Shown here: piece by piece, positions 10,431 through 39,600 of the stretch
How positions within the stretch are numbered: the first letter of the stretch is position 1
Layout: the number at the start of each line of letters is the position of its first letter
Assembly: GCF_963576545.1 (NCBI RefSeq)
Contig: NC_083639.1
Span: 21,360,118-21,424,117, forward strand
Direction of reading: 5' to 3'
Source of the DNA: Limanda limanda
Lineage: Eukaryota; Chordata; Actinopteri; Pleuronectiformes; Pleuronectidae
DNA length: 64,000 nucleotides
Position numbers and translations under genes: made by a program
Notes under the pieces: model-generated
Seen by the model: only the letters and a program-made list of their open reading frames with translations
Told to the model about the DNA's origin: nothing
Database searches by the model: none

Positions 10431-12687
10431 TTAGGTGGCGATACGATATGTATTGCGATTCTTCTCTGGTGTGAGGTTGCTCCTCTGGGCAGTAACGACG
10501 TCCCCTGCAGTAGAGAACATGCGTTCGGCAGACACACTTGTACCTGGTACACACAAGTACCACTTGGCCAGCTTGGCCAGGAGCGGGTACTCTGAGTGAT
10601 GACCTTTCCACCAGTCCAAGGGGTTTCCTGACAGTGGCAAAGGAGCAGCTTCTTTGTATTTCTTGATCTCCTGTTCTGCTTGTTCAAGGAATGACTTTTC
10701 TGGTGCCTCCCTGACATTCCCAAAAGTGTCCCCGAGTAGAACAGCCAGTGCACAGGTCTTCTTAGCAGGTGGGGGACCCTGGAGCACCTCATCCTCTTGA
10801 GCAGTTTCAAGTTCTTCCCTGAGCTCCTCCTGTTCCAGTCTCACCACTCCTTCCTGCAGGGTACAACAAATGAAAGACAGTTGGACAAATTGAGTTAAAT
10901 AATATAACTCCAGAATAGTCAGTAGGCTATTAGCAATACACAAATAAAAATGTATTATGGACAGGAAGCCAGGTTCACTATGGCAAATGTTTGTTTGTAA
11001 TAAGATTAAGATCAAGATACAGATTAAGATATATTTATTTGTCCCAAACACATGCACACTCATGCAAGGAGGGAAATTTAACCTCTGCTTTTAACCCATC
11101 TGGTGCAGGACACACAGAGCCGTAATATAAGTAATAGAGTGGTTTTTGATAGAAACCTATATCAATTTCAGCTACATGTCTATCCAGTGCGCACACACAC
11201 ACACACTGAGCTGTAATAGGCATTATGAACGAAAGCGTAGGCTAATTAAAATATTTAATTACCTGAGGATGCTGGTGCTGCGCTATTGCTACAGCTTCAT
11301 CGGCCACTCTTCTGTAGGTTTCTTGTCTTTCATCATCCGACATGAACGGCAGAGTTTTGAATCTTGCATCAAGTTCTGACGCCATTCTAAGTTTGGTCTT
11401 CTCCAAGTCGTCTGCATACCTTTTCTTGAGGTCTTGGTGAATGGCTTCCTTGATGTCCTTAAAAAACTGAGTATCACCAAATCTGTGCGTTTAGAGGGGC
11501 TATCACAGAGAGTGTTGGGTTGCTCTCATCCGACATAACACATGTCGCTACCTTGACTGGCTTCAGAGTTTGGATCAATTCTTCAGCATGAGATATGTCC
11601 GACTCTGTGAAGGTGTTTCTCCTTTTCGCTCTTTCTGACCTCGGGGGAGAGCAGTGCGGCGTTGATCGCAGGCTGCTGCTCGAGGAAACGTTCAACCATG
11701 TCATAAGCGCTATTCCATCTCGTTGATACGTCGGTTATCAGTTTGCGCTCCGGAAGCTCCAATAGCTTTTGTTTTTTCTTCAAAGCATGGAGTCCTGTGG
11801 CGCTTCTGTGGAAATATGCAGCTACGCGTCTGACTCGTCCGAGCAGTCGTGCAACAGCTGGCACCTTCAGTGCACGCTGTGTGGCCAGGTTCAAGGTGTG
11901 TGTAGCACTCGACATGGAAAAAGCCGGTTAACTCTGCGGTGACAATCATATTGGACGCATTGTCTGTGACTAAAGCTGGCTGTTTCTCGGTAATGCCCCA
12001 TTCCTCAGCTACGTTATTAAGTAGTTCTGCCATGTTTGCCCCGGTGTGGCTGTCGTGCAAAGCCCTAGTTTGGAGAACGTGAGAGGACATACACCATTCA
12101 TCAGTTATGTGATGGGCTGTTACTGTAACTTATGATTCAGTGGCCCTTGACGTCCACGCATCGCATGTCAGAGCAACTCGTTCAGCTTTACGCAACGATT
12201 CCTTAACTTCTGTCTTGATCTCGTTGTAGATCTTGGGCAGGGCTGTGTCAGAAAAGAAACGTCTTGATGGTATTGTGTACCTCAGCTCCAAAGTGTAAAT
12301 CATGTTTCGAAAACCTGTATTTTCGAACACACTATAAGGACGAAGGTCTTTGCATATAAAATGGGATATAGATTGTGTGATGCGATTAGCCTTTTCTGAA
12401 TTTTTGGGGAGCTTACTGAAACATGTATCCAGCGTTTGTTGTTTGCTGCTAGAAGATTTGGCTTCCTCCGCCATTTTGTCTGGTAATTCAGGATGGTGTT
12501 GAGTGATATGGGCACGTAAGTTGGTAGTATTACCAGAATACTTGATTTTTCCGTGGCATAGTTTGAAGACAGCATGGCTCAGGTCTAACTCGTTTTTTCC
12601 ACTTATATTATGAAAGCCTAAAGTCTTCCAGAGGTTCGTTTTAAAATGTTGAGGTGCAGAATGAATCTCGGGCCGAACGTGTGCCAT
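10431..12687 (-). pseudogene. ZBED1-like hAT transposase
   Basis: The minus-strand start at 12687 gives MAHVRPEIHSAPQHF. A BED finger follows (WKTLGFHN, AVFKLCHGKIKYSGNTTNLR, HITQHHPE). Its first zinc ligand is Phe instead of Cys (AVFKLC, normally AVCKLC), so the finger is broken. Next come VALTCDAWTSRATES then a stop, WGITEKQPALVTDNASNM (catalytic core), CYTHTLNLATQRAL and STRWNSAYDMVERFLEQQ. A helical part follows (11289-11480 and 11474-11704). The hATC dimerisation domain is at 10431-10640, with DWWKGHHSEYPLLAKLAKWY, VPGTSVSAERMFSTAGD and RSNLTPE. The pieces lie in at least five frames, and 11015-11125 is a separate repeat, possibly within an intron. Not functional. Confidence 0.9.
11010..11130 (+). 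repeat. Short interspersed repeat (LINE/SINE tail type), copy 1
   Basis: ATATATTTATTTGTCCCAAA, a CA-rich stretch, GGGAAATTTAACCTCTGC and TTTTAACCCATCTGGTGCAG match the element at 44620-44760 in order. It lies inside the hAT transposase gene. No coding capacity. Confidence 0.6.
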
Positions 12688-12704
12688 GTTTGCTGTCCAA
12701 CAGG

Positions 12705-12720
12705 TTAAGGCCGGCGCATG
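12705..12720 (+). repeat. Single end of the TTAA MITE family
   Basis: TTAAGGCCGGCGCATG matches the end of the MITE at 1009-1028. No opposite end is found downstream. It may be a truncated insertion just upstream of the hAT transposase start. Confidence 0.5.
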
Positions 12721-13153: not shown

Positions 13154-13388
13154 ATTATTAGTGAGCATAATAAACAAACAAACAAACACACACAAAACTT
13201 GAAAAACAGCAGGAACTGCAAAATGCAATGGATGCAACAACAGATTTAAAGGAAAAGTATCAGGTGTGTGCTAGGGAGATTCAAAACTTTATCAATGAAC
13301 AGAACATTGTTAACATGTAACATTATTAGTGAGCATAACAAACACACACAAAACTTGAACAAATTATGACACTACGGCCTGAAAGGGA
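13154..13388. repeat. 167-bp direct tandem repeat (target of the second hAT)
   Basis: ATTATTAGTGAGCATAA followed by AAAC and ACACACAAAACTTGAA occurs at 13154-13205 and again at 13321-13364. The left flank of the hAT (CATGTAATGATATTAG at 10366-10381) matches CATGTAACATTATTAG at 13313-13328. The repeat existed before the hAT landed in its first unit. Confidence 0.75.
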
Positions 13389-13729
13389 CTAAACCTTGCC
13401 GAATCCCATAGATTCCCGAAGTGCTTGAAAAAGCATTTTGTGGAGTTCCTCCTCCTCCGTGATGCCTCTCGGCAGGTACAAACACATCATGCAGGTTGAT
13501 GCATATGGCATCCGACGCTGGCCTTCCTTTTGCCGGAAAAAGTCTATGCTGGGCTTGTTTGTGAAGCCCAGCGCCGGAACCTCATCCGCTCCAATGATGA
13601 AGATTAGTATTATTTCATAGGTCAATTCACTTTTTTGACGATGTCCCACAGTTTCCCAAGGCATTCACTCCATTGGTGAACTGATGGATCATCTTGGCCG
13701 TTCTATAAACCAACAGAGACAAAACACGT

Positions 13730-15747: not shown

Positions 15748-16439
15748 CGAAGGAAGATGTAGTGCTTCACCACATAAGAATAGATCCTTGGGATGTCTGC
15801 ACATGATGCACTGAATATCCCTGGGACGCCGCACTCAGCGATCCAGTCACCTAAATCCTGCTGAAGTGCAGTCAGGTCCCCTGAAGTCTTGCACTGTTGT
15901 ATCTAAGAGAGAAATCTGAGTGAGTACAATGTTGCTGGAGTTTCAAATTGAGCAATTATTTGTCATGCAGTAGTCATTTAGTATAAACGCTGTTTAACGC
16001 TTTTGACAACTTTGAACAGAAGTTTAAAAAATGTTTTTTGTTTTAAATCCCAATAAATCTTAACATGATAATAAGCCCCCTTTCAATTTTGCTTTGGACC
16101 TCTGGGTCAGGCAGCACATGCCAGTCAAACTGGTCCAGTTGGGGATCCTGACCACACATCAGCAGAAAGAGGCTGGGATTCAGGGCTTTGAGGCACGGAC
16201 GTCTGTGGGCAACAGACTACACTGAGAAAAAGACCTGTAATCTTTACTTGCTTATTTTTTTAAATTCTACAATAAAATCTTAAGTAAGTGATTTTACTTC
16301 AAAATTCTCTATATTTTAATCTGATACTTGAAATTTGTTTGTTAATATGAATCCTCAATTTGATAAGTACATTTTATTATTCACGCCAAGTACTATTTAC
16401 TAAACTTTTTTATTGACTGCACAACTTTACACAATGAAG

Positions 16440-16560
16440 TGATGTTTACTTTGCTGACGTGAGTTAGACAACGCCAGTGACGTCAGCGTCAGAGACCGGA
16501 AAGCGGTCTTTTTAAGTCCCAGACTCACTTGCGGGAGAGACGTCGGCTGATGCTTACCTG
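16440..16560 (+). promoter_or_regulatory. CACTA transposase promoter
   Basis: Upstream of the first coding exon lie TGACGTGAG, GTGACGTCAGCG (a full CRE/ATF palindrome TGACGTCA) and a TTTTTAAG TATA-like box near 16508. The CRE feature recurs upstream of another CACTA copy at 50600-50645, which supports a real promoter element. Confidence 0.5.
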
Positions 16561-16600
16561 CACCGAGACGACAGACATCGAGTCGCCCACGCGAAAATAA

Positions 16601-18951
16601 ATGGACCTTGGGTAAGTGTTATGTTTCGTTTACTTAGTATACGTTCCTGTTTAGATTTGAAGTAGTTGCATGTGTCTTCAAAAACTGTAACTTCAGTACA
16701 AGCATTTATTCCACGTTTGCTACTCATAGAAACAGGAAACACAAATCGCATTCAACTGAGGACTTTAAAATTGAAGTCTTGAAAAAACACTTAGATCCAA
16801 CAGCAACTCAGGAAGAGATATTTGTTCAGGATGACCCTGAGTCTTTTGAAGAGGAACCACAGGAGTTGTCTCAAGACATAAAGGAGCATTTAGGAAAACT
16901 TTTTTTAAAGTTGGAAAGCACTTTTAATGTTACGAACAAGTGTATTGACGAAATAGTTGATGAGCTTCAGTTCCTATCCTGCAGTTCATCTGGTCCAGTT
17001 ATAAGAGGTGTGGTTGAGTCCACCTTGAAAAGCCATAGCTGTGATCTGGATTCAGCTGTTATCTCAGATTTGGTAAAAAACATTTGTGAGTCACACCCTA
17101 TAAGTACAGCTTTGGGAACAGACGGGCCTTTTGTTACTTCATACAAGAGACGAGAGTATATGAAGAAACAATTTTCCGTTGTTGAAAGTGAAGAACACAT
17201 ACTCGATAATAGAGAGGGTAAAACCTTCCAGTATGTCCCAATATTGCAGTCCTTGTTGCAGGTCTTAAACAATAAGGACTTTCCACAAAAGGCACTTGGT
17301 TGTGAAAAAAATACAGAAAATGTTTCACAATATCAGACATTTCATGACGGATCTCACTATCAGAACAATCCTTTTTTCTCTGCAGAGGAGGACAGAATTA
17401 GTCTCATTTTGTACATTGATGACTATGAGGTGTGCAATCCTCTCGGGACTTCCCGAAAAAAGCACAAAATCACAGCAGTGTACTGGGTTTTAGGAAACAT
17501 TCCAGCACAGTTTCGATCAGAGCTTACCTCTATTTATCTTGCTGTTCTGTGTAAGGCACAAGACTCTAAGCAGTTTGGATTCAAAAGAGTTTTAGAGCCA
17601 CTATTAACAGATCTTAAAACCTTGGAGAAAGATGGTCTTTTTGTTCCAAGTTTTGGAAAAGTCATCAAAGGCACTGTGGTCAGTCTGGTGGCTGATAATT
17701 TGGGAGCCCATTCGGTGGCAGGATTTGTTGAAAACTTCTCAGGATCATACGTCTGCCGGTTTTGTCTCGGGGAGCGATCTGAGTTTCAGTCCAAAGAAGT
17801 GAGAGGTGGGTTCTTTCCACGAAGAACTGAAGAACAGCATACACCGCATGTGCAGACAGCTGTGTCTTCTCCAAACCTCATTCATTGTTGTGGTGTGAAA
17901 AAACACTGTCCTCTTTCAGAAAAACTTGATCACTTTCATGTAACATCTGGTTACCCCCCAGATATTTTACATGACCTTCTTGAGGGCATTGTCCCAATGG
18001 AAATGGCTTTGTCATTAGATGTCTTGATCAAGAGGAAATATTTTTCTCTCATTGAACTCAATAATGCTATTCGTCAGTTCCCCTATAAGTGGAGTGATAA
18101 AACAAACTGCCCAAATATCATCCCTGCTAACTTTGCCACACAGAGATCAGTGGGAGGAAATGCACATGAAAACTGGTGCTTACTGCGTCTTCTGTCTCTG
18201 ATTATAGGTTTAAACGTACCTGAACATGAGCCCGTATGGCAGATGCTGATGACATTGAAAGACATTGTGGACCTTGTCATGTCTTCAGTCCATACAGAGG
18301 AAAGCATTTGTTATCTTGACAGTTTGATTTCAGAGCACCGACACCGATTCCTTGAAGCTTTCCCCCATCATAAGCTCTTACCCAAGCACCACTTCCTTGA
18401 ACACTACCCTCAGCTCATTCAGGAATTTGGTCCTGTAGCTGGCCTATGGACAATGAGATTTGAGGCAAAACACCCCTCCTCAAGAGAATTGTCAGACAGA
18501 CGGGCTGTTTTAGGAACATCTTGCTGTCCCTTGCCAATAAACACCAGCTAATGGTAGCTTACCATGAATCTCATGCTGTCAAACCATCACTCTCAGTCAC
18601 AAAAACATCAGTGGTCTCTTTAGATTTACTAAAGGATGACCTCAAAGACTTAGTGAAATGCAGAGTCCCATCTGTCACAACACTGCATCTTGCTCACAAT
18701 GTCTGCTTTTTAGGCACCAACTATGCAGTTGGAATGTTGGTGTGTTGTGGTTCCACTGCAGGATTGCCTGATTTTGCAGAGGTGTTGCAGATAATGATAA
18801 TCTGTGACAAATTTACCTTTTTCGTCAGACTCCAAAACACATGGTACATTGAACAGCTCCGGTGCTATGAGTTGGAGAACACAGGCAGAGTGCACTTACT
18901 TGAGCAAAGAGAGCTTCCAGTTTTTATCCTTTGGCTGCTTATAGTGTAGCA
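16601..18951 (+). pseudogene. CACTA (TNP2-like) transposase, near-intact, spliced
   Basis: Exon 1 (16601-16611, MDLG) ends at GGTAAG. The acceptor at 16728-16729 joins it in frame to exon 2 (NRKHKSHSTEDFKIEV then LKKHLDPTATQEEIF). Landmarks of animal CACTA transposases follow: LILYIDDYEVCNPLGTSRKK, HKITAVYWVLGN, FKRVLEPLLTDL, GTVVSLVADNLGAHSVAGF, YVCRFCLG, YPPDILHDLLEGIVP and HHFLEHYPQLIQEFGPVAGL. A frameshift near 18470-18510 makes the frame end early at 18551. Coding resumes in the next frame (SLANKHQLMVAYHESHA) and runs to 18949. Homologues at 40055-40860 and 48986-49356 have C2H2 fingers before the RKH motif. Here a four-residue exon replaces them, so end recognition may be lost. It excises and integrates the element if functional. 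Confidence 0.9.
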
Positions 18952-19098
18952 GGAAGACGATTGACAACCTTGAAACATTACATTTCCCTCTCCTTTTAGA
19001 TATCACCTGCAAACAACAAAAGTTGTTGAACTTATTTATGATTTTGGTTTATTTCAATAATAATTTCTCATGTTTATATTTCAGAGGCAGCCTTCCGA
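18952..19098 (+). other. Spacer between the two CACTA genes
   Basis: About 150 bp, AT-rich. The second gene starts at the ATG at 19099, possibly as a continuation by splicing. No separate promoter is evident. Confidence 0.4.
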
Positions 19099-21448
19099 GA
19101 TGGATACACTTGCAAAGTTTAGGATTATTTTTGGGGACGATGACGTTCGCAAACTGATTCTGCCTTCAGGCATCCCCAGTACACTGCAGGACCTTTTTAA
19201 TGCTGTCCATAAGAGACATTCCATATTCCAGGAATCTTTAGTATGATGTATGAAGACATGGATTTTGGTGGCCAGTTTTTCACTTTGAGCTCCTTTGAAC
19301 AAGTGCAAGACAAGGACACACTAAAGCTTGTTATGACTCAACCACCTGTCCTATTACTCATTCCTATGGAAAGGTCAGATGTTGACTCCCCAGTACCAGA
19401 AGAATCTTCTGATACAAGCTCTTTGAACTCATCTGCATCACAGGACACAATCCTGTTGTCCTCCTCAGATGAAACTGGAACAACTCTCAGGGCTCAGCCA
19501 TGGCCAGCTAAATTTAGATTACCTTCCTTTTCTTACAACGTTGAACTTTTTGCTCGAAGCAGGAAAACAAGCCTACAAAGAAGATGGCACTCTGTTGAAC
19601 AATCCAAGATTGAACAGTAGCATACTAGAAAAGCTAGCAGAAGCAATATTTTGCTACACAGCACACCCAAATGGTATCCAAGTTTTAGTTGTAGTAGAAG
19701 CCTTGATAGAACAGTATCCATGCCTCAAAGAGCCAGGGTCTTTTAATGGCTTATACGGATGGCAACAGAGGATAAAATTTAAGATGGGCAATTACCGGGC
19801 GAAATTAAGAAGTCAGCATCTAGCCATTCCAGAGCTGGAGGTTAACTCACTGAAAGGAAGATCAAGAAATGAAGAGCATTCACCCAAAGTCTTTAAAAAG
19901 CCTAAGAAAGCTGAAGTGAACTACATGCCGCCTTTGCCATTTGGTGAGACTGAGAACACTTTGGAGAAGGAGAGAGAGGATTTGCTGAGGGAAGTAAATA
20001 AGAGAAACAATGAGCTGGTCATTGGTCAGAAAATGGAGAAGTCTTTCTCCTATCGAAGAATGGAGGTTGTCAAGAAATGCCCTGCAGTCCAAGAACTCTT
20101 CGACTGATGGCCTGCGCTGTTCTGTGAAACTCAAGTAAGTCAAGTTCTTCTGAGAACTTGTATTTTTTTTGCATGGTGGGTTGTCTATAATGTTGTATTT
20201 TATCATCTTTTGTTTTAGATCAAAGACGAGTTCAGAAGAATAACAACGATACCTCTAGAGCAAACCTTCTTGTGTTCATTGGCCAGCTGCACCACCAAAC
20301 TCCTGGAGATATTTGGTGCAAAGGGCGGGAATGCTGGCAGGAAATTAAGACCAATGCTGGATTCATTCAGCCAGGTAATCTTTAAAACTCATCTGTGGGT
20401 GCATGCAGATTTGAAAATGTGTAAAGAAAATATTTTAAAAAGTATTCCGATATGAACTTTATTTTATATTTTTAAATGTGTAGACAAATCTGTTAATGAT
20501 TGCTCACAATGTCTGCTTTTTAGCACTGATGAAAAAATGGATAGATTTTCTTTACACATTTTTAAATCTGTTGAGACACACACACACGCACTCATTCTAA
20601 ACAGATTTGCAGAATCATGTACACATTCACAAATCTCCTTGCACATTTGGAGTCTTTTGCACATCCACAAACAGATTGAGACTATCATTTGTTAATCGTT
20701 TTGTTACAATGATGGCACCATACTACTGTTCTTTTCTAGTTGTATATGCAGTTAAACAATGTTCTTTCTATCTAACAGCAACATGTTGAAGGCAGACGAG
20801 ATGTTATTGTCTGGTGTTTGGTGGAGTACCTTGGGGAGTCTGGAGAGGAGCTAATCGAGGGCTACAAGGTAAATTTTGAAATTGATATTTTCTTACTATT
20901 ATGACCTTAATAATATGTAGTTCTCTTTTTTAAGCCTAATTATTGTCTCAATACTAATATTTCATAGGAAAATCACTTGTGTCGCTTTAAATTTAAAATC
21001 TAATACTTTTAATTATTTATTAAGGCATTAACTACAATTGGCATTTAAACCACTGTACCAATCAAAAATTTGGGGAAACTTTTGACCGGTATAGTCAGTG
21101 TTTCTAAATGATCAATTGTAAATAGACCTAAGTACTGATTTCCAATGTTTTTGACAGGATTTGAGCAAAGAGGACATGGAGCATCACGTCATGAAAATTT
21201 GTGTTGTGCAAGGAAATGCAGCACAGGACCGTGTTTCGATCATCATAGAGGGGAAGGAAGTTCTTGGGGACTGTACGAGTGTGGCTCGGGCTTGCTTTTT
21301 GCTCATGGGTTTTATTTATGCTATGAACTTGAGCTACCCACCAAAGTTGAAATACACATTCGAAGTGTTTCAGAAGCTCTTCCTCAAGCTTGATGTCCTG
21401 AAGATGTCTCCAAAAGTCCAAGGTTTGCACAACAAACTTTTGGCATGA
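19099..21448 (+). pseudogene. CACTA second gene: PB1-like plus SAMD3-like conserved protein
   Basis: Exon 1, 19099 to about 20135, begins MDTLAKFRIIFGDDDVRKL. It contains a PB1-like fold region (MMYEDMDFGGQFFTLSSF, VQDKDTLKLV), a Ser/acidic linker, then PWPAKFRLPSFSYNVELF, KLAEAIFCYTAHPNGIQVLV and FKKPKKAEVNYMPPLPFGE. Later exons with AG/GT borders are 20219-20371 (IKDEFRRITTIPLEQTFLCS), 20780-20870 (QHVEGRRDVIVWCLVEYLGE) and 21158-21448 (DLSKEDMEHHVMKICVVQGN, ending NKLLA). There are frameshifts near 19227 and 19549 and a TGA at 20105. The order PB1-like then this conserved block is known from repetitive fish proteins annotated as SAMD3-like. Function unknown; a partner of the transposase by location. 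A second copy of the PB1 part is at 36160-36426. Confidence 0.8.
20406..20570. repeat. Foldback repeat in a CACTA intron
   Basis: A 26-bp arm at 20406-20431 (CAGATTTGAAAATGTGTAAA...) is matched in inverse by 20545-20570 with 25 of 26 identical. It could form a hairpin or be a very small MITE of 165 bp. The surrounding intron to 20690 has further CAAATCTG/CAGATTTG words. Confidence 0.7.
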
Positions 21449-21484
21449 ATATTTCCACAGAAGTGGCTGTGAAGAAGTGAAGCA

Positions 21485-22385
21485 ACATCACTATTTAAAT
21501 TTCAGTTCAGGGTTGAGCCAAAGAGTGCTTTGTTCAGCTGTACGTTTGTTCTCTTAGCAGCCTGTTTGGTATTTGATCAAACACATTGTGAATTTTTATG
21601 TACAACTCTTAAATGAGTTCCCTTTTTGAAATCCTTAAAACTAAAGAAATAGTTAGGGATTTTACTTTCTACATGGTTCTTGCAAAAATGCACTTTACAT
21701 GTGTAAATGTTATGAAAATGTCAGACTAAGTGTTCTTCATGTCCACAATACTGTTTGCAACACTGATGTAGTTGATTTGGAATATATTCAGCAATATCAT
21801 TATTTACATTTCAGATCAGGGTTGGGCCAAAGAGTGCTTTGCTCTCTGTACGTTTGTTCTCTTAGCAGCCGTTTAGGTATTTGATCAAACACATTGTGAA
21901 TTTTTATGTACAACTCTTAAATGAGTTCCCTTTTACAAATCCTTAAAACTAAAGAAATAGTTAGGGATTTTACTTTCTAAATGGTTCTTGCAAAAATGCA
22001 CTTTATATGTGTAAATGTTGTGAAGAGGTCAGACAAAGTGTTCTTAATGTCCACAATACTGTTTGCAGCACTGATGTAGTTGATTTGGAATATATTCAGC
22101 AATATCACTATTTACATTTCAGATTAGGGTCGGGCCAAAGAGTGCTTTGCTCTCTGTACGTTTGCCTGAACACATAGTGAATTGTGATGTACAACTCTTA
22201 AATGAGTTTCCTTTTGAAATGCCTTTAAAAAAAAAAAAAGGAACGTGTAAGAATTTTATTTTCTAAATGTTTCTTGCAAAAATACGCTTTACATGTGTAA
22301 ATGTTTTGAAAATGTCCAAAAGTCAGACTAAGTGTTCTTAGTCTGCAATACTGTTTGCCGCACTGATGTTTAGATGCTGCTCGCA
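21485..22385 (+). repeat. Three tandem copies of a ~308-bp unit
   Basis: The word GGTTGAGCC/GGTTGGGCC/GGTCGGGCC, followed by AAAGAGTGCTTTG, occurs at 21511, 21820 and 22128, giving periods of 309 and 308 bp. Other shared words in each unit are ATGTACAACTCTTAAATGAG and GTTCTTGCAAAAATGCAC. The third unit is shortened. It lies between the last exon of the second gene and the CACTA 3' end, so it may be a subterminal transposase-binding or terminator region. Confidence 0.85.
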
Positions 22386-22821
22386 TAAGTATTTAAATAA
22401 AGAGGCTTTTCTTTAAAACTTTCATGTTTTGTAGAAGTGTTTTATTAGGACAATTGTATTGACAAAGAGGAGCCCGTGTTAAAAATGCAACAAATCCAGA
22501 GAAGAATAGTACTGTAAAGTAGTGATGAAATATTATGGAAATATTACTTAAAAACATCTTGATATATAGAAAATAAAAGCTAGTAAAATGTTAATATTAA
22601 CAAAATAGATACAAAGGTTGTCTGAGTCAAATTTAATAGCAAAGTTTGAGGAAATTACATAATTTTTTTATTTAGTAAGGGTCAAAATAGCTAGTAAAAT
22701 CTACTTGAGTATTCTTTATCTAGTAATTCACACTTTAAAGTAAACTTCACTTCAGAAGTGGAGTGAGAATTGTTACCTCACTTCTACTAAGTAAATGTCA
22801 CTCCAAATTTTTCTCAGTGTA

Positions 22822-24665
22822 GGCGATCAGTTTGCCAGCTTTGTAATATTTCCCTTGGTCCAATGCTGCCTGATCATAAGAGAGAAAGACCTGGCTGGCC
22901 TTTCCCTCAAAAATGCCCAGAGAGGTCTGAACTTCTATCATCAAGAGTCTAGAAGAAATCAACAGAAAAGAGAAATATAAGAATTTGTTTTACTGTGCAG
23001 TTAACCTGAAAACATGCAAAGATTTTTTATTATACATTTAATAAATTACTTGAGGTATTCAGACCTGAAAAACTCTCGCTGTGGCCCCCCCATATCATCT
23101 GCCTCTTCTCCAACACACTCAATATGAGGTGAGTGGGTCCAAGAGAAATTGACTCTGGAGATGGCCTTCATAGCACCCTCCAGAAGCCTCTTCCTCCTGA
23201 TGGAAATGGTGGATCCCCGGCCACCACAAAGGTGATCCTCATGATATTTATTCAAAATTGTTCCAAGATCTACTTCTTCCTAAAGTATATAAAATGTATG
23301 AAGTACATCATGCATCATTGAAAAATTCTTTAATAAAAAACCTAACACTACTCTTTAATGAAAAAAATGTAATAAAACTTACCAATGGAGGACCGTTGCT
23401 TTCCAAGGGAATTGAAAGACTCCCATCCTCGTCCTCATCCCCAGAGTCAATGAGGAAGTCATTGATGGGAGTACTAAACAAATCAGATTTTGTTCATTCA
23501 AAGTGTCAGTATTACATATTCAGGCTTGTCAAAAACTAATTTCAAACTTCTCTGTAAAATATATGTAGTAGATGAGTATTGACAGTGTTTTTTGGGTGGA
23601 AAAAGAAATGTCACACATGGTTCTACTTTGTAAACTTAAAAATACTGTACCTGATCAGTGGTTTCACCCTTGATCTTCTATAAAACACCTTGAAAGTACA
23701 AAGACTGCATTAAATAATAAAATCTATCAATATTTGAATGATATATTTAATACCACATTTGAAGAAAAATTTAACTACAGTATAATCGTCCAGATTCTTA
23801 CTTCTGGGGTCCCAGCATTTAGCCACTCTGATGGATCCAAACTTGCCTCCTGTTGATTGACAAGATTTAGCATTTATTCCAACTGTCTTTTATTGAGGTT
23901 AGATTTGAAAATTGAACTGATGGCTTTTCAACCCACTCTTCGACATTAAGATTGCTCTTTACTTTAATATGAATAATCTAAACAACATTCAAAATAAAGG
24001 GCTCCAGACTAACTTTTCCCTCTACACATTCATATTTTAACCTTTAATAATTTAGCCCCAGGACCCTTTTAATACCAGGTCTCGGTATCAACCCGTCGCT
24101 CCTTCCTGGTGTTACACGTGATATATGACCTAGTCATAAAAAATATGGTCGCAGTTTGGAGCCCTAAAATATATTATTGTTTTACAATTACTAACGTGTG
24201 ATGAGCTTCCATCAAGGTCCAACGTTGGCCCCTGAGCAGGCTGCTGCTGATGCTGAGTTGGATGGACCTGGTAGAGCGCTTTAAGCTTCTGAGATCTAGA
24301 TGGACAAAACAAAGGGCCTAATTAGTCACTATTATCAAGGTGCTAATATTCAAAAGGATGTTGAATGGGATGTTGGCCCAAAAGAACAACAAAATCTTAC
24401 CTGTGAAGGCAGTGCTATGTTGGCCAGGGGAATAATATAGAGCCTGCTCCTGCCAACAACAGTCTTCAGCTCCTTCAGCGTACTTGCCTGAATTATCTTA
24501 AGGACCCTGCTCTTATCAGCTCTTGCCAGCTGAAAACCAATAACATTCAGGCTTACTGCTGGAAAGCTTTGGCAGATGTAGTTATTGAGTTCACATAGAG
24601 TCCAGGAAAGTTGTATGGTAGCTCCCTGTGTGACTGCCCAGGCAAATCATGACTCGGGCTCCCTG
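22822..24665 (-). pseudogene. HECT E3 ligase-like gene, 5' exons and HECT N-lobe
   Basis: Minus-strand exons with plausible AG/GT borders: about 24665-24401 (LCELNNYICQSFPAVSLNVI, GFQLARADKSRVLKIIQAS, YIIPLANIALPS), 24295-24196 (SQKLKALYQVHPTQHQQQ), 23849-23802 (ASLDPSEWLNAGTPE), 23676-23651, 23473-23383 (TPINDFLIDSGDEDEDGSL) and 23279-23065 (STISIRRKRLLEGAMKAI, ECVGEEADDMGGPQREFF). The next, 22948-22822 (LGIFEGKASQVFLSYDQAAL, KYYKAGKLIAY), is cut by the CACTA element. VGEEADDMGGPQREFF is the start of a HECT domain, the region that binds E2 and transfers ubiquitin. A TAG would lie at the CACTA target after repair. No promoter or first exon is found upstream of 24665. Either a captured host gene fragment or a transposon-carried gene. 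Confidence 0.8.
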
Positions 24666-24799
24666 GAAAAAAAAATAGTGTCAATATGATGTCAATTAAA
24701 TGAAACAAAATATTGTGTCTTATTAGCTATTGACTCACAGTTGAATCGAAGCCTTATTGTGTATTTTGTGATCCATGCAGTGTGAACTCCATTTTAAAT
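24666..24799. other. Short unassigned interval
   Basis: Between the first visible HECT-like exon and the LINE scraps. Nothing supportable. Confidence 0.4.
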
Positions 24800-24869: not shown

Positions 24870-27800
24870 AGTAAGTTTTATTTATAGAGCACATTTAAAT
24901 ACAGCATAAACTGACCAAAGTGCTGTACTATGACAATAAAAGGCAAATAATACAATATAACAATACAAATTGACCATAAATCCTAATATCCAATACAAAG
25001 AGCAATAACATTCATTAACAGGACACCCCACATAGACAAGAACAGGGGGTGAACAGTTAGGGGGAAAGGAAGGCAAGGGAGTAAAAGTGGGTTTTTAGCC
25101 TAGACTTGAAGGCAGAAATGGAGGGGGCGGATCTAATGTCCAGAGGGAGCTGGTTCCATAGACGTGGAGCGGCGACAGCAAAGGCCCTGTCACCTTTCTG
25201 CTTGAGCCGTGAGCGTGGCACGTGCAGAAAACCTTTGCTAGAGGATCTGAGGGACCTTTGAACTGACTGGGGCTGTACAAGGTCAGTGATGTAGGCTGGG
25301 GCCAGCCCATTGAGTGCCTTAAAAACAAATAATAAAACTTTAAACTGTATCCTAAAATGAATGGGGAGCCAGTGCAAGGAGGCCAGAATGGGGGTGATGT
25401 GCTCACGCCTCTTGGTGCCAGTTAAAAGACGTGCAGCTGCATTTTGAACCAGCTGTAGACGTCTGAGTGAGGATTGGGGGAGGCCGAGGTAGAGGGAATT
25501 GCAATAATCCAGCCGTGATGTAATAAAGGCATGAATTACTATCTCCAGGTCTTTATGAGATAGGAAGGTTTTGAGGCGGGAAATCACTCTAAATTGGTAG
25601 AAACTAGTTTTGACCACATTACTAATCTGTTTGTCAAGACAGAGTTCAGAGTCGAGGATGACACCCAGGTTTCTGGCGTAGGGTGTGACAAATGGAGTGA
25701 GTTACCTAAATTATTTAGAGCAGTGCATCTTGCATTGGGGGGGCCAAAAATGATGACTTCTGTCTTGTCACCATTTAACTGGAGGAAGTTGTTGGCCATC
25801 CAGTTTCTGATGTCTTCAAGACAGACCAGGAGAGATTGGATGGAGTCCCTAGATTTTAATGGCAGGTACAGCTGTGAATCATCTGCATAGAGGTGAAAAG
25901 AGATGTTATGCTTTCTCATAATGTCACCCAGTGGGAGCATATACAGGCTGAATAGCATGGGACCCAGTATGGACCCCTGAGGGACCCCATAAGAGACAGG
26001 GGCAGATGATGAAGAGAACTCGCCTATAGAGACAGAGAAAGTACTGTGTTTAAGGTAAGAGCTGAACCAAAGTAATGCAGTCTCCCTGATACCCACCTGC
26101 TGGTCCAGGTGGGTGAGGAGGATGTTGTGATCTACAGTGTCGAAAGCAGCACTAAGGTCAAGTAATATCAAGATGGCATTTTCACCAGAATCCAAAGTGA
26201 GGAGCAGATCATTAGTTACTTTAAGCAGGGCAGTTTCTGTGCTGTGAAGGGATCTAAAACCTGATTGAAAGGGTTCTAGTATGTGGTGGGTGGTCAGAAA
26301 GGGAATCAACTGTGACAAAACAGCTTTCTCTAAAACTTTAAAAAAACTTTTTTAGGCATTCAGCATCAAGGTTGTGTTTTTTAAGCAAGGGTTGGACAAC
26401 CGCATGCTTAAAACATGTAGGGACAGTTTAGAATTACCTGAATAGAGGGGCCAACTGCATCAAAAACATCCTTTATGATAGAAGAGGGAATGGCATCATG
26501 GGGGGATGCAGTGGGTTTCATGTGCAATACTAAATCCTGCAGTTCAATGAGAGAAATGGGCTGAAATTGGTTAAAAATAGCTGGTGCACCAGAATAATCT
26601 GGTGGAGTGGGTGATGAGGAGGGGGTAAACAATGGTCTAATGTTCTCTATTTTATCGGTGAAAAACTTAAGGAATTTCTCGCAGGTATCAGTAGATACAT
26701 CAGCAACTGGGGAGTTAAGAGGGTTGATAAAATAATTAATAGTGCTAAATAAAATGTTGGGTCTATTAGAGTGTTTGCTAATCAGACCAGAGATGTGTTT
26801 TGACCTGGCTTTTTTGCTGCTGCCTGGAAGGAAGCTAGTGCAGTTTTAAAAATTTCAAAGTAGACAGTTAGGTGATCCTTTTTCCATTTCCTTTCGGCTT
26901 TACGGCAGGCCTGTCTGAGAGAGCGGGTGGCCTCATCCAACCAACATTGAGATTTTTGCTTGGGGCGGCTATATGTGAGAGGAGCTATAGAGTCAAGTAT
27001 GGAAGAGCAAGAAGAGTGGAAAAGGCTGACTAAATCATCCGGGCTAGAATAGGATGATGCCGCTGTTGCAATGGTAGATGCAACAGTTTTACTAAGAAAG
27101 CTATCAGAAAACTGGGCTGCAGTAAGAGAGTTTATGTGGCGAGAGTAACGACCTTGAGCTCTGGCAGTTCGCAATGGATTGGAGAGGGTAACATCAAACG
27201 TAATAGGCGTATGGTCAGAGAAAGTGGCATCCTCAATCACAATATTATCTACAGAAAAGCCATAAGATAAAATAAGATCAAGTGTATGTCCCAAAATATG
27301 AGTAGCTTTATTTATATGTTGAGTAAGACCAAAGGCATCTATTACACCACGGAATTCGTTAACCATGGGTCTGTCTGGACAGCAGACGTGGATATTAAAG
27401 TCACCAAGTATGAGAAGACGATCATGCAATGAGACAAAATGGGAGAGAAAGTCAGAGAATTCTGTTATAAAGTCTTTGTCAGGCTTAGGGGGCCTATAGA
27501 TGAGTACACAAACCAGTTGGGACATAGCAGATTCTACAATTACGCATTGCAGTTCGAAAGTGGAGAAACTCCCTACAGAGAGTGTCCGTAATTTAAAATT
27601 ATTTTTGAAGACGAGAGCTACTCCACCTCCTCTTCCAGCGCACCTCGGTGTGCTAATGAACGAGCAGTTAATAGGGCAAAGTTCGCCGAAGACAGAAGAC
27701 TGGCCAACTCCAGCGCTGATCCAAGTCTCGGTTAAAAACAGGAAGTCCAGATTGTGATGAGAGAAGAAGTCATTTAAAACAAAAGTTTTGTTAGACACAG

Positions 27801-28427
27801 ACCTGCAGTTGACCAAGGCGATTTTTGCCGTGGAATGAATCCGGCCTGGGGGCAACGGGAGTAATCCAAAGGGCGGATGTTCAGGGAGTTCATCCCACCG
27901 CTACGGATCCGCAGTCTCGGACGAGCAGAGCTGACATGTGTTTGGGGTCGATGCGGACTGATGGATACATGGCAGGAGTACCTCGGATCCCACGAACGAC
28001 GAGCCAGGAAGAGATCTTTCCGTCCTAGATGGGCTGCAGAGAGATGACAGGGCCACGGCTGTGCGGGAGAAACACACGCTCTTTTCCTGATCGCCACCCG
28101 GACTCCTCCGCGTTTGCCTCGGCGCCTCCGACGCTTCTTCCGGAGAGAGACACAGCAGGGTAGCCGAAGGACACACACCAGGTAGGGGTATACAAACGGA
28201 GGGTGACATCTGGTGTAGGGAACAGGAGACCCACTAGTATGGGTCACCAGTGCATTTCTGAGATGTAGCAGAGTCTGATGATCATAGGTCCAGTTAGCGG
28301 CAACAGAGCAGTGCCAGCATAGCATAAGTGCCAGCATAAACAAACATAGAACAACTCGGACAGCTAGGAGTTGACGGAGCTGACGGCAGGCCGACAAACA
28401 CACTGGCGCCATCTTGGAGCTCCGTAA
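24870..28427 (-). mobile_element. L2-like non-LTR retrotransposon, near full length
   Basis: About 3.56 kb on the minus strand. The 5' end is near 28427, with the first ATG at 28412 inside a CCAAGATGGCGCC motif that matches a YY1 site. The 3' end at about 24870 is a TTAC/TTACTTAC repeat preceded by the L2-type GCTCTATAAATAAAACTTAC. The coding region is described in the next entry. Length and 3' repeat tail fit the L2/CR1 group. It lies between the HECT-like exons and the ACTAGT array. Confidence 0.85.
25057..28412 (-). pseudogene. L2-like endonuclease/reverse transcriptase
   Basis: Minus strand. A leader frame (28412-27774, MAPVCLSACRQLRQLLAVR, with an RKKRRRRRGKRGG basic run) precedes an APE-type endonuclease (27855-26782) with ALVNCRSVSNKT, FLFLTETWIS, CVLIYRPPKP, LLILGDFNIHV, HTLDLILS and FSDHTPI. 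The reverse transcriptase (26632-25584) has [48 protein letters not shown] and the active site [12 protein letters not shown]. The C-terminal part (25617-25057) has FKVLLFVFKALNGLAPAYI and RLWNQLPLDIRSAPS. Three or four frameshifts or stops separate these, so it is recently dead. Catalytic residues are still present. It would nick genomic DNA and copy its RNA at the target. Confidence 0.9.
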
Positions 28428-29190
28428 AATAAAAAGATAAATACATCATAAACAAGCTGTCAAAACCATTTTATTATCAAACCCTCTCTGGTGGGACGAC
28501 GTACGAACAAGCTCTGTGATGCTTTTTGCTTCAGAATGATGACTTTCTTTATGCATGTACATGCGAGCAATTCAAAGTCAGTGATATGTTTTCAGGCTAA
28601 AATGTGTCATGGTATACATATATTTGATATATGCATGTGCACACCTCCCTCTAAGGGGCTTAATACCATTATGAATCTCACTGTGTGAAATTTCCAGTAA
28701 TATATGGTAATCAAGATCTATCTGTCCGTCTGACTTATCAATATAATATAAAGTGGTAAAAGATTCAATTGATTAACTGGTATGGCTAGATGTGAAACAT
28801 TGTTAGATTTCAGTTACAAGATATTCTTTTTTTCTCACAACTGCTGATATAATTAACAGTTTTTATATAACTTTAAAGAACAGAATTAATAATATTAACA
28901 TTATTGATGAAATGTGTTGTTGCAAATGTTCTATACATATAATATTGATGTTACATACATTTTGCTTCCCATGTGTGCATTAAGCTGTTGGACATTTAAT
29001 CTTCCACAAAGCTTTCATTTAATTGGCATTTCATAATATAACACAATAAAACAAATGAACACACCTCCTGAAATGAGTGCTCCTAAAACTGAAGCGACTA
29101 TTCAGAGCTGGCACTTTAAGGCTTTGAAACACAGTTTGAACACTGACCAATCAAAATCCTTGTCATGCCTGCCTCATTTGCTTACAGTAC
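28428..29190. other. No gene; promoter-like words just before the array
   Basis: AT-rich sequence with no coding domain. The last 60 bp before the array contain GACCAATCAAA (CCAAT box, about 29147) and CTCATTTGC (about 29173). Related words occur just before the second array module. Confidence 0.5.
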
Positions 29191-29854
29191 ACTAGTTAAC
29201 TAGTGGACATTTGCGCCCCACTAGCTAACTAGTGGCTGCATTGGCAGTTTACATGTAAACTAGTGAGGCACAATTGTCCACTAGTATACTAGTTCGGGTC
29301 TTTTTGACCTTACTAGTAAACTAGTGAGGCTCAAAATGGCTCACTTGCTTACTAGTGAAGCCTAAAAGTCCACTAGTGAGCTTGTTGAGGTCTTTTTTGC
29401 CGTACTAGTGAGCTAGTTACAGTCACATTATTTTACTAGTAAACTTGTAGGTTCCAAAAAGACCCACTAGCAAACTAGTGGCACTGATGTTTCCTTTACT
29501 AGCTTACTAGTGGAAGACATTTTGTCTCACTAGTTCGACTCTGTACAAAACATGTAGGGACTTTGACCGAACATGTTGAATATTTTTCTTACATGTTGGG
29601 CATTTTCTTAAACTAGTTGAGCTTTTCTCAGAACTTTTGAACGACTGTGCACAACTAGTAAGACATTTGATCGACATGTTGGGCTATTTGTCCAACTAGT
29701 TGACATTTTGGGCCCACTAGTTGAGGTTATCATCTTTCTAGTTTGACAAAACTGCTCACTAGTCGACATGTGCACGCAACTAGTTAACTAGTGAAATTCT
29801 GTATTGTCCTACATGTTATCTAGTGACCCTTTATCACATCACTAGTTAATTAGT
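29191..29854. repeat. ACTAGT palindrome array, module 1
   Basis: The array starts with pairs of six-base palindromes 8 bp apart (ACTAGTTAACTAGT type). Pair starts are at 29191, 29220, 29251, 29280, 29312, 29343, 29372, 29404, 29435, 29466 and 29498, mean step about 30.7 bp. From 29529 it switches to single sites at 29529, 29550, 29571, 29591, 29612, 29633, 29654, 29674, 29695, 29716, 29737 and 29758, a 21-bp step. It closes with three pairs at 29779, 29811 and 29841. Degenerate sites keep a palindromic core (ACATGT, GCTAGT, ACTTGT, ACTAGC). The 14-18-bp spacers differ and often contain an A- or T-run. Confidence 0.95.
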
Positions 29855-29924
29855 CGCGTTGCTGGAGAGCCAATAGGAAGCTTCGATTGTAATCCCCTCA
29901 TTTGCATGTGTGTCCAGGAGTGTT
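29855..29924. promoter_or_regulatory. Header between array modules (CCAAT plus octamer)
   Basis: A 70-bp interruption without ACTAGT. It holds GAGCCAATAGG (CCAAT box) and, 30 bp on, CCTCATTTGCATG, which contains the octamer ATTTGCAT. The sequence before module 1 has the same order, CCAATCAAA then CCTCATTTGC. I infer a repeated unit of header plus array. Whether it drives transcription is unknown. Confidence 0.5.
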
Positions 29925-30506
29925 ACTAGTGAGCTAGTAGGCATTTTGACTGCCACTAGCTTACTAGTAAGCCCTTACAGCCTCACTAGTTTGCTAGTAC
30001 GGTCAAAAAACACTGCAACTAGTAAACTAGTGGGTTTTTCGACCCCACTGGTTTACTAGTACACATTTTGCACCTCACTAGTTTGCCAGTAAGGTCAAAA
30101 TAGGCTTTTACTAGTAAACTAGTGGGTATTTTGGCTGCACTAGTTTGCTAGTGTGCATTTGGGCTCCCACTAGTTAACTAGTGCAACAAATTGGAGGCCA
30201 ATAGTTAACTAGTGAGCTGAATCCATGTTTGACTAGCTTACATGTCAGAGCTTTTGCAGCTCACTAGTTAGCTAGTAACACTTTCAGCCTTACTAGTTTG
30301 GTCCAGAGGGCAACTAGTACAGCAAAAAGCTCACTAGTAGAAGCGCACAGTGTTACTAGTAAGGTTTCTGTTGTAACTAGTTGAACAAAAGTGCCACTAG
30401 TAGCTGAAAAAGAGTGAATAGTAAGATTTTTTTTTCAACTAGTTCAGTAAGATGCTGAACTAGTGTGACCAAATGTCCAACTAGTGCTGACAAAGACCGA
30501 ACTAGT
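29925..30506. repeat. ACTAGT palindrome array, module 2
   Basis: Pairs start at 29925, 29955, 29985, 30018, 30047, 30077, 30110, 30139, 30169, 30200, 30232 and 30263 (step 29-33 bp). Single sites then follow at 30292, 30313, 30333, 30355, 30376, 30396, 30417, 30438, 30459, 30480 and 30501 (step 20-22, mostly 21). Order and counts closely repeat module 1. Typical pairs are ACTAGTAAACTAGT, ACTAGTTTGCTAGT and ACTAGTTAACTAGT. No ORF spans it with a recognisable protein. Confidence 0.95.
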
Positions 30507-31304
30507 GGAGGGGACTGAAATTTGATATCAAGGATTTTGAATAAATGCTCAATCGGCTTGCCATAGTTGCTCTCCCTAAGACACAACCTCGGTGATTCGC
30601 TCACCATCGTCACGCACAGTCCAATCCCATCGGTCCTGGAGTCTGAGACACAGCGATTGGACCGCAGCCTGAGAAACTCCAAAATGAAGCTTTTGGCCAA
30701 ATGAAGTCAGCTGTTCTGTCACCATGGAAACAGATTGATATTTGAGAGGATATTAAAGTGATGATCTGTTTCATCTGTGTCACTGGACACGAAACAGGAA
30801 GTGAAGTGTCCAACCACAAGTCACGTCTCTCTGACGCTGGTTTAAGCAGTAGCCAATCAGCAGCCAAGCAGCAGGAGTGTGTACCTGCAACATGAGGCTC
30901 ACTTTGTCTACATGTGAAAGTTATTTTCAATGTGTGTCAGTTTTGATTGTTTTCTATTCTGTTTACATTGTTACGACACACTACGTTTCCAATGATCCTC
31001 AGCCTTAGCTGCTTCTGGTTCACGTGAAGGTTAAAGGTCGGCGCTGATTGTTGAAAGTTCAATAAAGATTTTATAAACTGAAGTAGCTTTTGATTTCTGT
31101 ACTGAGTGTAATGCCAGGCCCAGCCTGCAGGGGGCACTAACAGCACTTTACCACCATGGGCAGATGTTGATACTGAAAACTTCCTGAAGGAGGCGCTCCA
31201 GGAGTCAGTTACCATGGCAGCTGGTCTCCCCCTCCTGTTCCTAGCCCCTCTGTCAAATTTTGGAACCCATTGTGGCCCGCGAGTCAAAAAGTTTGCCCAC
31301 CCCT
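30507..31304. other. Right flank of the composite; no gene recognised
   Basis: About 800 bp between the array and the right hAT end. An AATAAA lies near 31061 on the plus strand. No known domain is seen in any frame. The final about 55 bp carry the hAT terminal sequence. Confidence 0.5.
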
Positions 31305-31313
31305 GGGCTAGTT

Positions 31314-32042
31314 GGTCTTTCATATTAGGGTTGGTGTTTCCTTTCTCTAATGAGTCTTACACTGGAAATTCGCTGTTAATTCGTGGAATTGGCTTAAACA
31401 CAATTTCAGTGCCGTTGCACAATGTCTCTCTTGAGTGTGAGCTAGTGGAGGGTGACATAGTGCTTGGTGTTCGGCCTGCACTACCTATTGAGGGTATCTC
31501 ATTGGTGCTTGAGAACCAGCTGGCAGGTAGACGCATCTGGTCAGATACGTCTTCTCCTCTGGTGGTTACTGAAGAGCCGCTGTCCACCGACAAGACTGCA
31601 AAAAAGTATCCAAAGGTGTTTACCGCATGTGTAGTTACTCGCTCTGCCAGTCAAAAGACTGAAACTAACAGAGTGCAGTCAACTAAATCTAAAACTTTTT
31701 CGCTCACTGATTATCCTGTCTCTGTATCAAGTGAGGAATTGGCAGAAGAGCAAAAATCAGATGAGACATTGAAATCTCTGTTTGAACTCGTTGACAATGA
31801 AATATGGAATAAAGCGGGGGGTTACTTCATTAAAGACGGCATGTTGTTGAGGAAATGGTCTCCTCACGCCGATTGTTTTGTTGGTGATCCAATTGTCCAG
31901 GTGGTGGTTCCTGCTAAATTTCATCCGCTGGTACTCGAAACCGCTCATGATAAGCTCGCTGGTCATGCCAGTGTACAGAAAACGTATGATCGCATTTTGC
32001 GCTATTTCCACTGGCTGCGAGTTAAGCGTGACGTTGCCAGGT
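31314..32042 (+). pseudogene. Gypsy protease remainder plus H2C2 integrase finger
   Basis: Resumes the protease in frame after the insertion: SFILGLVFPFSNE, then LNTISVPLHNVSLECEL and GVRPALPIEGISLVL with LAGRRIWSD, the C-terminal half of this protease family. A linker containing FTACVVTRSASQ leads to VVVPAKFHPLVLETAHDKLA, GHASVQKTYDRILRYFHW and RVKRDVAR, the HHCC-type finger at the N-terminus of integrase (its first His-Gly pair is AHDKLAGH). The frame ends at 32042, where the element is deleted into LTR sequence. No RT lies between protease and integrase. Confidence 0.88.
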
Positions 32043-35067: not shown

Positions 35068-35954
35068 TAGAGATGAGCCGGATACTCGGCTGAAACGAGT
35101 ATCCGGTACGGATAAAGCACTTTTGCCGATTACGAGTAATCGGAGTCATTATCTGTGCTCGGACTGAATGAAAAGCGTCACAGCGCTCCTCCCGTCACAC
35201 ACGGCTCTGCCTCTCAGTCACTCAGGTTCACTGCGCATCGGGACTGTTCCATAGGCTCAATCAAGGAAGCAGAAATGATTCGTTCATTTCCCGACTGGGT
35301 CTTCGGGTACGAGTCTTTTGAACATTTTTCACGAGACCTGCAATGGCTCAGTAGAGGGGCGCTGGAGATGCGAGGGACGTTCACTGTCTCCCGGAGAAAT
35401 GATCACTGTGTTTTTAGTATAGAAAGATGTGAATTATATTTGTTCACAAGTCATAATGACTGGTTTTGTTATTTTCACTTTACATTTACACTTACTTTAC
35501 AGTAAAGTAAACCTCTATTAAATACAGTACAACATGACAGTTTGTATGGTTTGAAATTGTCATCAATTATCACACTGGCATTTAATTATCACGGCAAACA
35601 ATTACACTGCACTAAACTTTAAGTGTTAATGTAAAGTTAAAATAACAAAACCAGTCTGTATGACTTGTGAACGAATATAATTCACGTCTTTCTATACTAA
35701 AAACACAGAGTGTTCATTTCTCCGGGAGACAGTGAACGTCCCTCGCATCTCACTCACACACACACACACACCGTGTGGAAATAAATTTAAAAAAAATAAA
35801 AATAAAAAAATCATGAAAATTTTTCATGTTGAACCAGCCCACTTCCGGGTTAAATCACACCCACTTCCGGGTTAGACCCCGCCCACTCCGAGTACGGATA
35901 CGGATAATTCATATGGTTAACAGATACAGATAATGCTGTACTCGCTCATCCCTA
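35068..35954. mobile_element. Foldback hAT MITE
   Basis: 887 bp. The ends are TAGAGATGAGCCGGATACTC and, in reverse, TAGGGATGAGCGAGTACAGC, with a perfect 8-bp duplication GTAATAAC (35060-35067 and 35955-35962). Inside, 35366-35482 and 35633-35750 are near-perfect inverted arms of about 117 bp around a 150-bp loop. A CA tract lies at 35751-35775. There is no transposase. Relatives of its internal sequence occur at 56640-57260. Confidence 0.93.
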
Positions 35955-38504: not shown

Positions 38505-39600
38505 ACTTTCCGGATTATAGGCCGCACCTGCTAAAATTTCAAAGAAAAAATAAATTGTACATAAATAAGCCGCACCTGTCTATAAGCTGCAGGTGTCCCC
38601 GTTGAAACATGAGATATTAACACGGAAAGATGTTACAGGAAAGATTTTTTAAAACTTAATTAAATAAATGCCGGTAACATCCACAACATACGCAAATGAT
38701 TTTTTCAGAACACTGCTTTTAACAGTACTAAAGTTGTCTCCTTCAGTATCGGAATTGAACAGCCTGAGGGTATGTTATTCCTTCGTTACACATTTTATCA
38801 GCGAAAATATAGAAACCTACCATCAAAAGTCATTAATTTAAATAAAATAAATGCCGGTAACATACACAACATACGCAAATGCTTTTTTTCAGAACAGTGC
38901 TTTTAACAGTACTAAAGTTGTCTCCTTCGGTATCGGAATTGAACAACCTGAGGGTATGTAATTCCTTCGTTACACATTTTATCAGCGAAAATATAGGAAC
39001 CTACCAGCAAAAGTCATTAGTAATTAGTCGCCATCGTCCTCATATGCACTAAAACCATTGAAGTCCTCTTCTTCAGTGTCCGAATTAAAAAGCCTCAGAA
39101 TTGCTTCGTTGCACTCAGTCTCTCCTTCGTTGGCGCTTACAATGTCACTTTTCTCCCGAGGCAAATCCGCCATTGAACTTGCGCTGTCCTCCTCATCACG
39201 CAGCAGTCCAGCCCTTTCGGAACCCGTTGGTGATTGTAGATTCTCTGACACTTCTCCATGCTGGCATCCACTGGCAGACTTGAGAAAAAGTTGCTCTTCT
39301 CATGCGGCCAGTTTTTGTAAAGAATTTCGAGCCGCTCGTCGTCCAAGCCGCCTACTGAACTCGGAGTGCAATCTTAAATGAACGGTTCACACTAATGTCG
39401 AGGGGCTGCAAATACTTTGTTGTGCCCCCAGGAATCACAGCTGGAATTGAGTTTGTCTTCTTGCCGGCTGCTTTCACAGAATCTGTGATATGGGCCCTCA
39501 TGCTGATGTTGTTGTATTAAGGACAATGTTCAGCTGTGTGTCTTCATATCTGGAGGCAAAGTCGGATTTTATTTGGTCTTCCATGGCACCTGCATGACAC
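38505..39600 (-). pseudogene. Pogo/Tigger-like transposon fragment
   Basis: The left end GTACTTTCCGGATTATAGG follows a TA at 38512-38515. Minus-strand coding pieces: MRAHITDSVKAAGKKTNSIP-like and KYLQPLDISVNRSFK (about 39500-39375), the conserved LQPLDVS(V/I)N motif near the end of pogo DDE transposases. Next come SERAGLLRDEEDSASSMADL and an acidic tail ILRLFNSDTEEEDFNGF at 39251-39024. The N-terminal half and the right end are missing; hAT sequence begins near 39605. Inserted in, or fused to, CACTA sequence. Confidence 0.75.
38664..39018. repeat. 183-bp tandem duplication of the pogo tail region
   Basis: TAAATGCCGGTAACAT, CACAACATACGCAAATG and CTTTTAACAGTACTAAAGTT repeat with a 183-bp step (38667 and 38850). 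Each copy encodes LRLFNSDTEGDNFSTV on the minus strand, a relative of the acidic tail in the main frame (39058 area). So three successive copies of the tail exist. Confidence 0.85.

Follow-up and report, generated by a model that had tools for sequence, protein, structure and literature searches.

The array of ACTAGT palindromes at positions 29191-30506 of the window (the 64-kb stretch of Limanda limanda DNA that was analysed) is, with a probability that we put at about 0.9, the end region, with its internal repeats, of a DNA transposon. The transposon fits the IS3EU superfamily by its tips, the length of its target duplications and its integrase domain. Judged from the alignment of its copies, the array is mobile DNA, with copies in the terminal as well as the internal parts of an IS3EU-type element. 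The transposon is ordinary in kind; its unusual features are a putative phased operator array and palindromic derivatives of 8 kb.

Composition and spacing of the ACTAGT array

Exact ACTAGT hexamers occurred 47 times between 29191 and 30506, whereas the dinucleotide content of the flanks predicts 0.31; this agrees with the first-pass annotation, which had counted about 47 in 1.3 kb where less than one was expected. Across the entire 64-kb window the count was 57, against 16.7 +/- 4.75 in 100 shuffles. With sites of at most one mismatch and the variant ACATGT included, the array resolved into 48 units, of which 24 were dyads, with two hexamers 8 bp apart, and the other 24 were singles (lone hexamers), arranged as DDDDDSSDDDDSSSSSSSSSSDDDD, a 70-bp gap (29855-29924) and DDDDDSDDDDDDSSSSSSSSSSS. 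Both of the spacing modes described earlier were recovered: 18 of the 20 dyad-to-dyad steps measured 29-33 bp, the remaining two being 21 and 84 bp, and single-to-single steps were exactly 21 bp in 14 of 20 cases, 20 or 22 bp in five and 42 bp in one. The statement that variant sites stay palindromic was right for ACATGT, present at no more than 7 per 600 bp, but not for the 17 one-base variant sites of the array, which are not palindromes because each differs by one base. Similarly, the proposed helical-turn periods held locally, where phasing was strong and the hexamer spectrum peaked at 10.35 bp, but a phase over the full 1.3 kb was not clearly kept (step shuffles, p = 0.039 and 0.088, borderline). 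The sites were flanked by AT/GC alternation. The likeness to a CRISPR array is one of geometry only, as annotated.

A stretch reading TTGT.AT.CC..CCTCATTTGC adjoined both array halves (29160-29181 and 29886-29905, the latter inside the 70-bp gap), with a local alignment score of 25 compared with a shuffle mean of 15.7 (p 0.01). A similar TCAAAATCCTTG was seen next to array A and close to tip B, as defined below. Elsewhere in the window, the best match to the array covered 52 bp at 71% (E 0.001).

Dispersed copies, tips and target duplications

A genome search for further ACTAGT arrays, as the first-pass annotation had proposed, found dense arrays at dispersed places. The dyad pattern, which counts twice per place because it is a palindrome, matched 104 times per strand genome-wide, compared with 271 for the reversed control; since the control is commoner, the pattern itself shows no enrichment, and what sets it apart is its clustering. 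Among the matches listed, 18 dyad-pattern places were chosen (L220-L237), half of which (L220-L228) were dense arrays with 24 to 57 ACTAGT per stretch and half (L229-L237) isolated dyads with two or three. Comparison of four dense arrays showed that spacers of the window recur there in the same succession, on either strand. A left query (29090-29540) gave at least 67 matches (40 of 59 candidates scored), and its near-full-length matches numbered 18, namely the window's own match and a further 17 at 91%, from 11 loci; a right-end query (30280-30620) gave at least 43 (40 of 53 candidates scored). Where aligned copies differed by a gap of 6-200 bp, its length was 7, 10, 20, 23-24, 29-30, 84-85, 87, 89 or 94 bp; most of these lengths resemble those of units and approach a whole number of helical turns, with 7 and 23-24 as the exceptions. 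The 5.4-kb copy L228 shared 98.7% identity with L268 along 4.0 kb, which indicates that the spread is recent.

The shared sequence ended sharply at TATGGCAAGCCG, window position 30565 in minus-strand reading. The transposon tip was TATGGC in copies that came from a search requiring similarity to the tip; in the divergent copy L222 it was TATGCC. Such ends occurred as facing pairs bounding elements. Among 13 end pairs taken from the right-end query matches, target duplications were exactly 6 bp in eight, three of which weigh less because they sit in dinucleotide repeats; the remaining pairs agreed at 5/6 positions in one case, 4/6 in one (C21) and 0-1 of 6 in three. Flanks of different copies crossed as a control gave 2/156. 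In the available passages of PMC10045372, the marks of IS3EU are TA..TA tips and usually 6-bp target duplications. Both were found here, the duplications at other copies.

A host lattice unrelated to mobile DNA, whether nucleosome-positioning or architectural, would suit the local helical phasing and the AT/GC alternation near the sites. However, the array copies are dispersed and carry sharp ends and target duplications, on which grounds a host chromosomal lattice was rejected, and we regard it as extremely improbable. A non-autonomous EnSpm/CACTA element was also rejected: no target duplication, which would measure 2-4 bp in such an element, was found at the CACTAGT borders of the array, and the real tip lies 58 bp farther out. 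Compared with the end of the EnSpm-like element in the window, the array gave a best match at chance level (E 6.1).

A full-length relative and the window copy

The ends of a full-length relative on C21 are 14,445 bp apart. Its terminal inverted repeats measure 1,097 bp at 99.7% identity, and each contains an array that starts 59 bp from the tip; array A, a second and internal array, lies 2.3-2.9 kb inward of the left end. The relative encodes an integrase (PF24764, E 1.2e-76) with a catalytic D-39-D-35-E, and a pattern scan of the integrase region in three frames found no HHCC motif. This DDE core without an upstream HHCC motif is shared with IS3EU, as are the tips and the 6-bp target duplications. 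An upstream exon gave a weak match to HTH_38 (E 1.1e-4, below the Pfam cut-off). A protein search with the C21 integrase yielded 2714 relatives among 3019 candidates, and the named proteins among the first 12 of the relatives listed belonged to ray-finned fish (78-82% identity). The opposite strand of C21 carries homologues of the coding remnants in the window, with no Pfam match in the pieces scanned, and C21 DNA also matched the window's HECT remnant. The integrase and the remnant homologues form two convergent coding regions, so that arrays lie upstream of both. The P superfamily, with Galileo, was rejected as a candidate, because the enzyme of the C21 relative has an integrase core and nine scanned pieces gave no P-type match.

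The copy in the window is broken, since only the last 41 residues of its integrase were found there and its second end was not. Its parts are as follows.

30507-30565, minus strand: the last 59 bp, beyond the array, with TATGGC at the sharp stop of the shared sequence
29859-30565, minus strand: end B, a terminal repeat with 88-90% identity to the terminal repeats of L268, L228, L269 and L271; dyads at 29925-30277, singles at 30292-30506
29794-29859, no strand: A-B junction, where L269 positions 1030 and 2582 meet
28702-29793, minus strand: array A (second, internal array) and flank, 88% identity to L269 2582-3691 (C21); dyads at 29191-29511, singles at 29529-29742, dyads up to 29793
24930-28445, minus strand, bounds approximate: LINE-like block inside the transposon, with PF03372 in ORF 26785-27900; C21 similarity stops on both sides
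24371-24691, minus strand: coding remnant, 75% protein identity to the C21 relative, no Pfam match
22816-22989, minus strand: coding remnant, part 1, 91% protein identity to L270 3890-4231, residues 1-58; cut by the EnSpm-like insertion
16220-22819, plus strand: EnSpm-like insertion, foreign to the transposon, with a 12-bp TIR CACTGAGAAAAA and TA on both sides; target uninterrupted in L270
16046-16216, minus strand: coding remnant, part 2 of the same piece, 91% protein identity, residues 58-114
13392-13664, minus strand: HECT domain, C-terminal part, with a match to PF00632 at E 1.7e-9 that passes the curated cut-off
13195-13317, plus strand: last 41 residues of the integrase, 88% identity to residues 237-277 of the L271 integrase

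End B in L271 and L269 is part of the 1,097-bp terminal inverted repeats, and array A from 29097 onwards also occurs in foldback copies at 91-92%. At the A-B junction the window copy lacks about 1.55 kb that the C21 copy has. A deletion, as this alignment indicates, joined arrays A and B in the window copy, and the array is therefore nearly continuous over 1.3 kb. Similarity to C21 resumes at 24813-22821, 16217-15692, 15568-15475 and 13729-13154. The LINE-like block holds a reverse-transcriptase-like ORF that was recognised by eye.

Several other repeats were noted in the window. The EnSpm-like element contains a 637-codon frame that matches Plavaka below the cut-off (E 0.009), and tandem 308-bp units at 21481-22164. 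Just to the right of the transposon end, an ORF at 31112-32041 has an Integrase_H2C2 domain (E 9.4e-10) and belongs to a gypsy-like retroelement; just to the left of the remnant's limit, hAT-like ORFs were recognised by eye at 10431-12720. A separate small foldback at 35365-35751 has inverted repeats of 51 and 89 bp that are 93-94% complementary, and 184-bp units are repeated in tandem at 38658-39019.

Palindromic 8.24-kb derivatives

Positions 442-8684 of L268 form an 8.24-kb stretch that is its own reverse complement at 99.6% and is flanked by a 6-bp duplication. No ORF of at least 90 codons lies wholly within this palindrome. Five more loci have the same size and layout, with facing B ends 8,241 to 8,274 bp apart at all six loci and facing array A pairs 1,445 bp apart; the palindrome was read over its whole length in L268, and the other five were assigned by the size and layout of their facing ends. 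Long near-perfect palindromes are normally unstable DNA, and the apparent amplification of palindromes of several kilobases is relevant to the question of how vertebrate genomes retain long palindromes.

Conservation of sites and spacers

The spacers, which the first-pass annotation had taken to be unrepeated, proved to be related. A weak common pattern, RGG..ATTTTG..CCY, was found in 41 spacers on either strand (mean pair score -3.56, compared with -4.85, sd 0.14, after shuffling), and the same spacers stand in the same order in other genomic copies. They begin with purines, pass through an AT-rich core (ATTTTG/CAAAAT) and finish with pyrimidines, with both strands equally represented. Spacer pairs scoring at least 6 numbered seven in direct orientation, where 0.3 were expected, and seven in inverted orientation, where 0.2 were expected. 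The annotation's conclusion that the array is ordered and no ordinary minisatellite stands in both parts, but its argument from unrelated spacers does not. A satellite or minisatellite of head-to-tail copies with conserved spacers was rejected, as twenty 15-bp spacers were 31.5% alike directly, against 25.4% by chance, and the copies are dispersed. The annotation had named whole-unit tandem repeats with conserved spacers as the mark of a normal satellite and unconserved spacing as that of chance phasing; tandem repeats of one unit were absent from the copies and spacing was largely kept, but the spacers were conserved between copies.

Traces of inverted duplication were also present within the array. 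The dyad block 29185-29486 matched the reverse complement of 29919-30219 beyond shuffled spacer order (z 2.7), compared with z -1.1 in direct orientation, and block D1 and inverted D2 agreed at 64% of the positions that lie outside sites. In duplicated blocks the hexamers were 87-91% alike and the rest 60-64%, in alignments that were partly driven by the sites themselves. In two short well-matched inverted pairs (sites 10/12 and spacers 23/26; sites 14/15 and spacers 24/29), the spacers were as conserved as the sites. RNA folds of the array were strong (z -10.0, -5.4 and -10.2) because palindromes are repeated. Hairpin selection was rejected, since pairing within the 41 spacers (77/246) equalled that of shuffled partners (mean 75.8, p 0.46), and pairing across sites was no better.

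Between two subfamilies, in the best-aligned block, sites changed less than spacers: 2/78 compared with 25/186 for L271-L265, and 3/72 compared with 23/172 for the window and L265. Pooled copies of array A gave no clear difference (sites 6.3%, spacers 7.4%), as is expected if recent copies decay neutrally, and there was little difference between L220 and L222 in block S2 (sites 5/48, spacers 13/112). Array B, pooled, gave 7.6% for sites and 13.8% for spacers, a difference part of which may be explained by misaligned units.

These data bear on the possibility that the array, within the same transposon, is a by-product of tandem and inverted duplication, the palindrome being kept by unit exchange with no protein to read it. 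Array size does differ between copies by unit-like gap lengths, and the match of D1 to inverted D2 outside the sites, like the traces of common descent in the spacers, is what such duplication would leave. However, the hexamers of duplicated blocks are more alike than the remainder, even though the sites help to drive those alignments, and one block shows fewer site than spacer changes between subfamilies. We consider an array without a reader improbable.

Predicted function of the array

Protein binding is the natural reading of the array and is predicted here. The ACTAGT palindromes would be putative operators for a dimeric protein encoded by the element, for which the integrase, acting through its HTH exon, is the most economical candidate, although a regulator of the element's own is also possible. 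Two units may sit next to each other on a dyad of 8-bp spacing, and with steps of 21 and ~31 bp the complexes that follow one another along the helix would face the same side. Binding to one face could load integrase near both tips and help the ends to pair; at high integrase levels it could also turn off the element's genes, since arrays lie upstream of both convergent genes. That the palindromes are read in this manner by the element's own integrase or regulator appears to us somewhat probable. Rather doubtful is a more elaborate form, in which integrase would coat dozens of ACTAGT in both terminal repeats, the dyads and the 21-/31-bp steps would represent two binding modes, and the lattice would repress the element's genes as well as let the 8.24-kb palindromes be mobilised as passengers.

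Alternatively, the array of the same transposon might serve mainly as a promoter or enhancer to which a host factor, and not the integrase, binds. The arrays do lie upstream of both convergent C21 coding regions, and each half is preceded by the stretch with CCTCATTTGC (29172-29181 and the 70-bp gap), which we take to be a CCAAT box and octamer-like stretch. Nevertheless, the array stands in both terminal repeats, even in copies without an internal 90-codon ORF, and its 40-80 sites are more than a promoter alone needs; we regard a host-factor promoter as fairly unlikely.

The transposon family would be suitable as a test system, with its 1.1-kb ends (99.7%), many non-autonomous copies and a candidate integrase. 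The putative operator code is simple, and its sites and spacing can be altered singly.

Comparison with known systems

IS3EU is a minor superfamily. Phased palindrome arrays, a HECT gene and 8-kb palindromic derivatives were not found described in the available passages of the printed accounts of it. No mechanistic study of IS3EU appeared in the part of the literature that the searches returned, and searches with the array letters and for IS3EU gave no title on such an array among the results listed.

Foldback elements have repeat units of 10, 20 and 31 bp. The dyad ACTAGTTAACTAGT presumably matches the core of the E. coli trp operator; we take this likeness as a coincidence of geometry and claim no homology. 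Galileo resembles the present transposon in its repetitive long ends, foldback derivatives and variable repeat number, and extra transposase sites have been proposed in its repeated ends, according to the available passages of PMC3573991. In contrast, Galileo belongs to the P superfamily, whereas the enzyme here has an integrase (rve-type) core. In EBV oriP, as the available passages of PMC3798644 and PMC3095595 describe it, EBNA1 sites are 21 bp apart in DS and FR holds twenty 30-bp repeats. The likeness extends to two modes, of about two and about three turns, and to a palindrome bound by a dimer, but oriP is a viral plasmid origin, and the likeness is one of geometry and function. Both parallels are analogies, which would reflect function and not descent.

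Rfam gave no match, and four matches in phage records (E 5) were at chance level. Stretches fitting the spacing patterns numbered 6 and 91 in the viral collections and at least 118 in the prokaryote collection. Four dense loci were read out of the 215 spacing-pattern loci, with conserved spacers in L083, L128 and L208 and partly conserved ones in L097. The bacterial arrays in L128 (3196-3660) and L208 (4885-5235) carry ACTAGT at 20-21 bp and differ from that of the window in that spacers are conserved within the array; they are ordinary tandem repeats.
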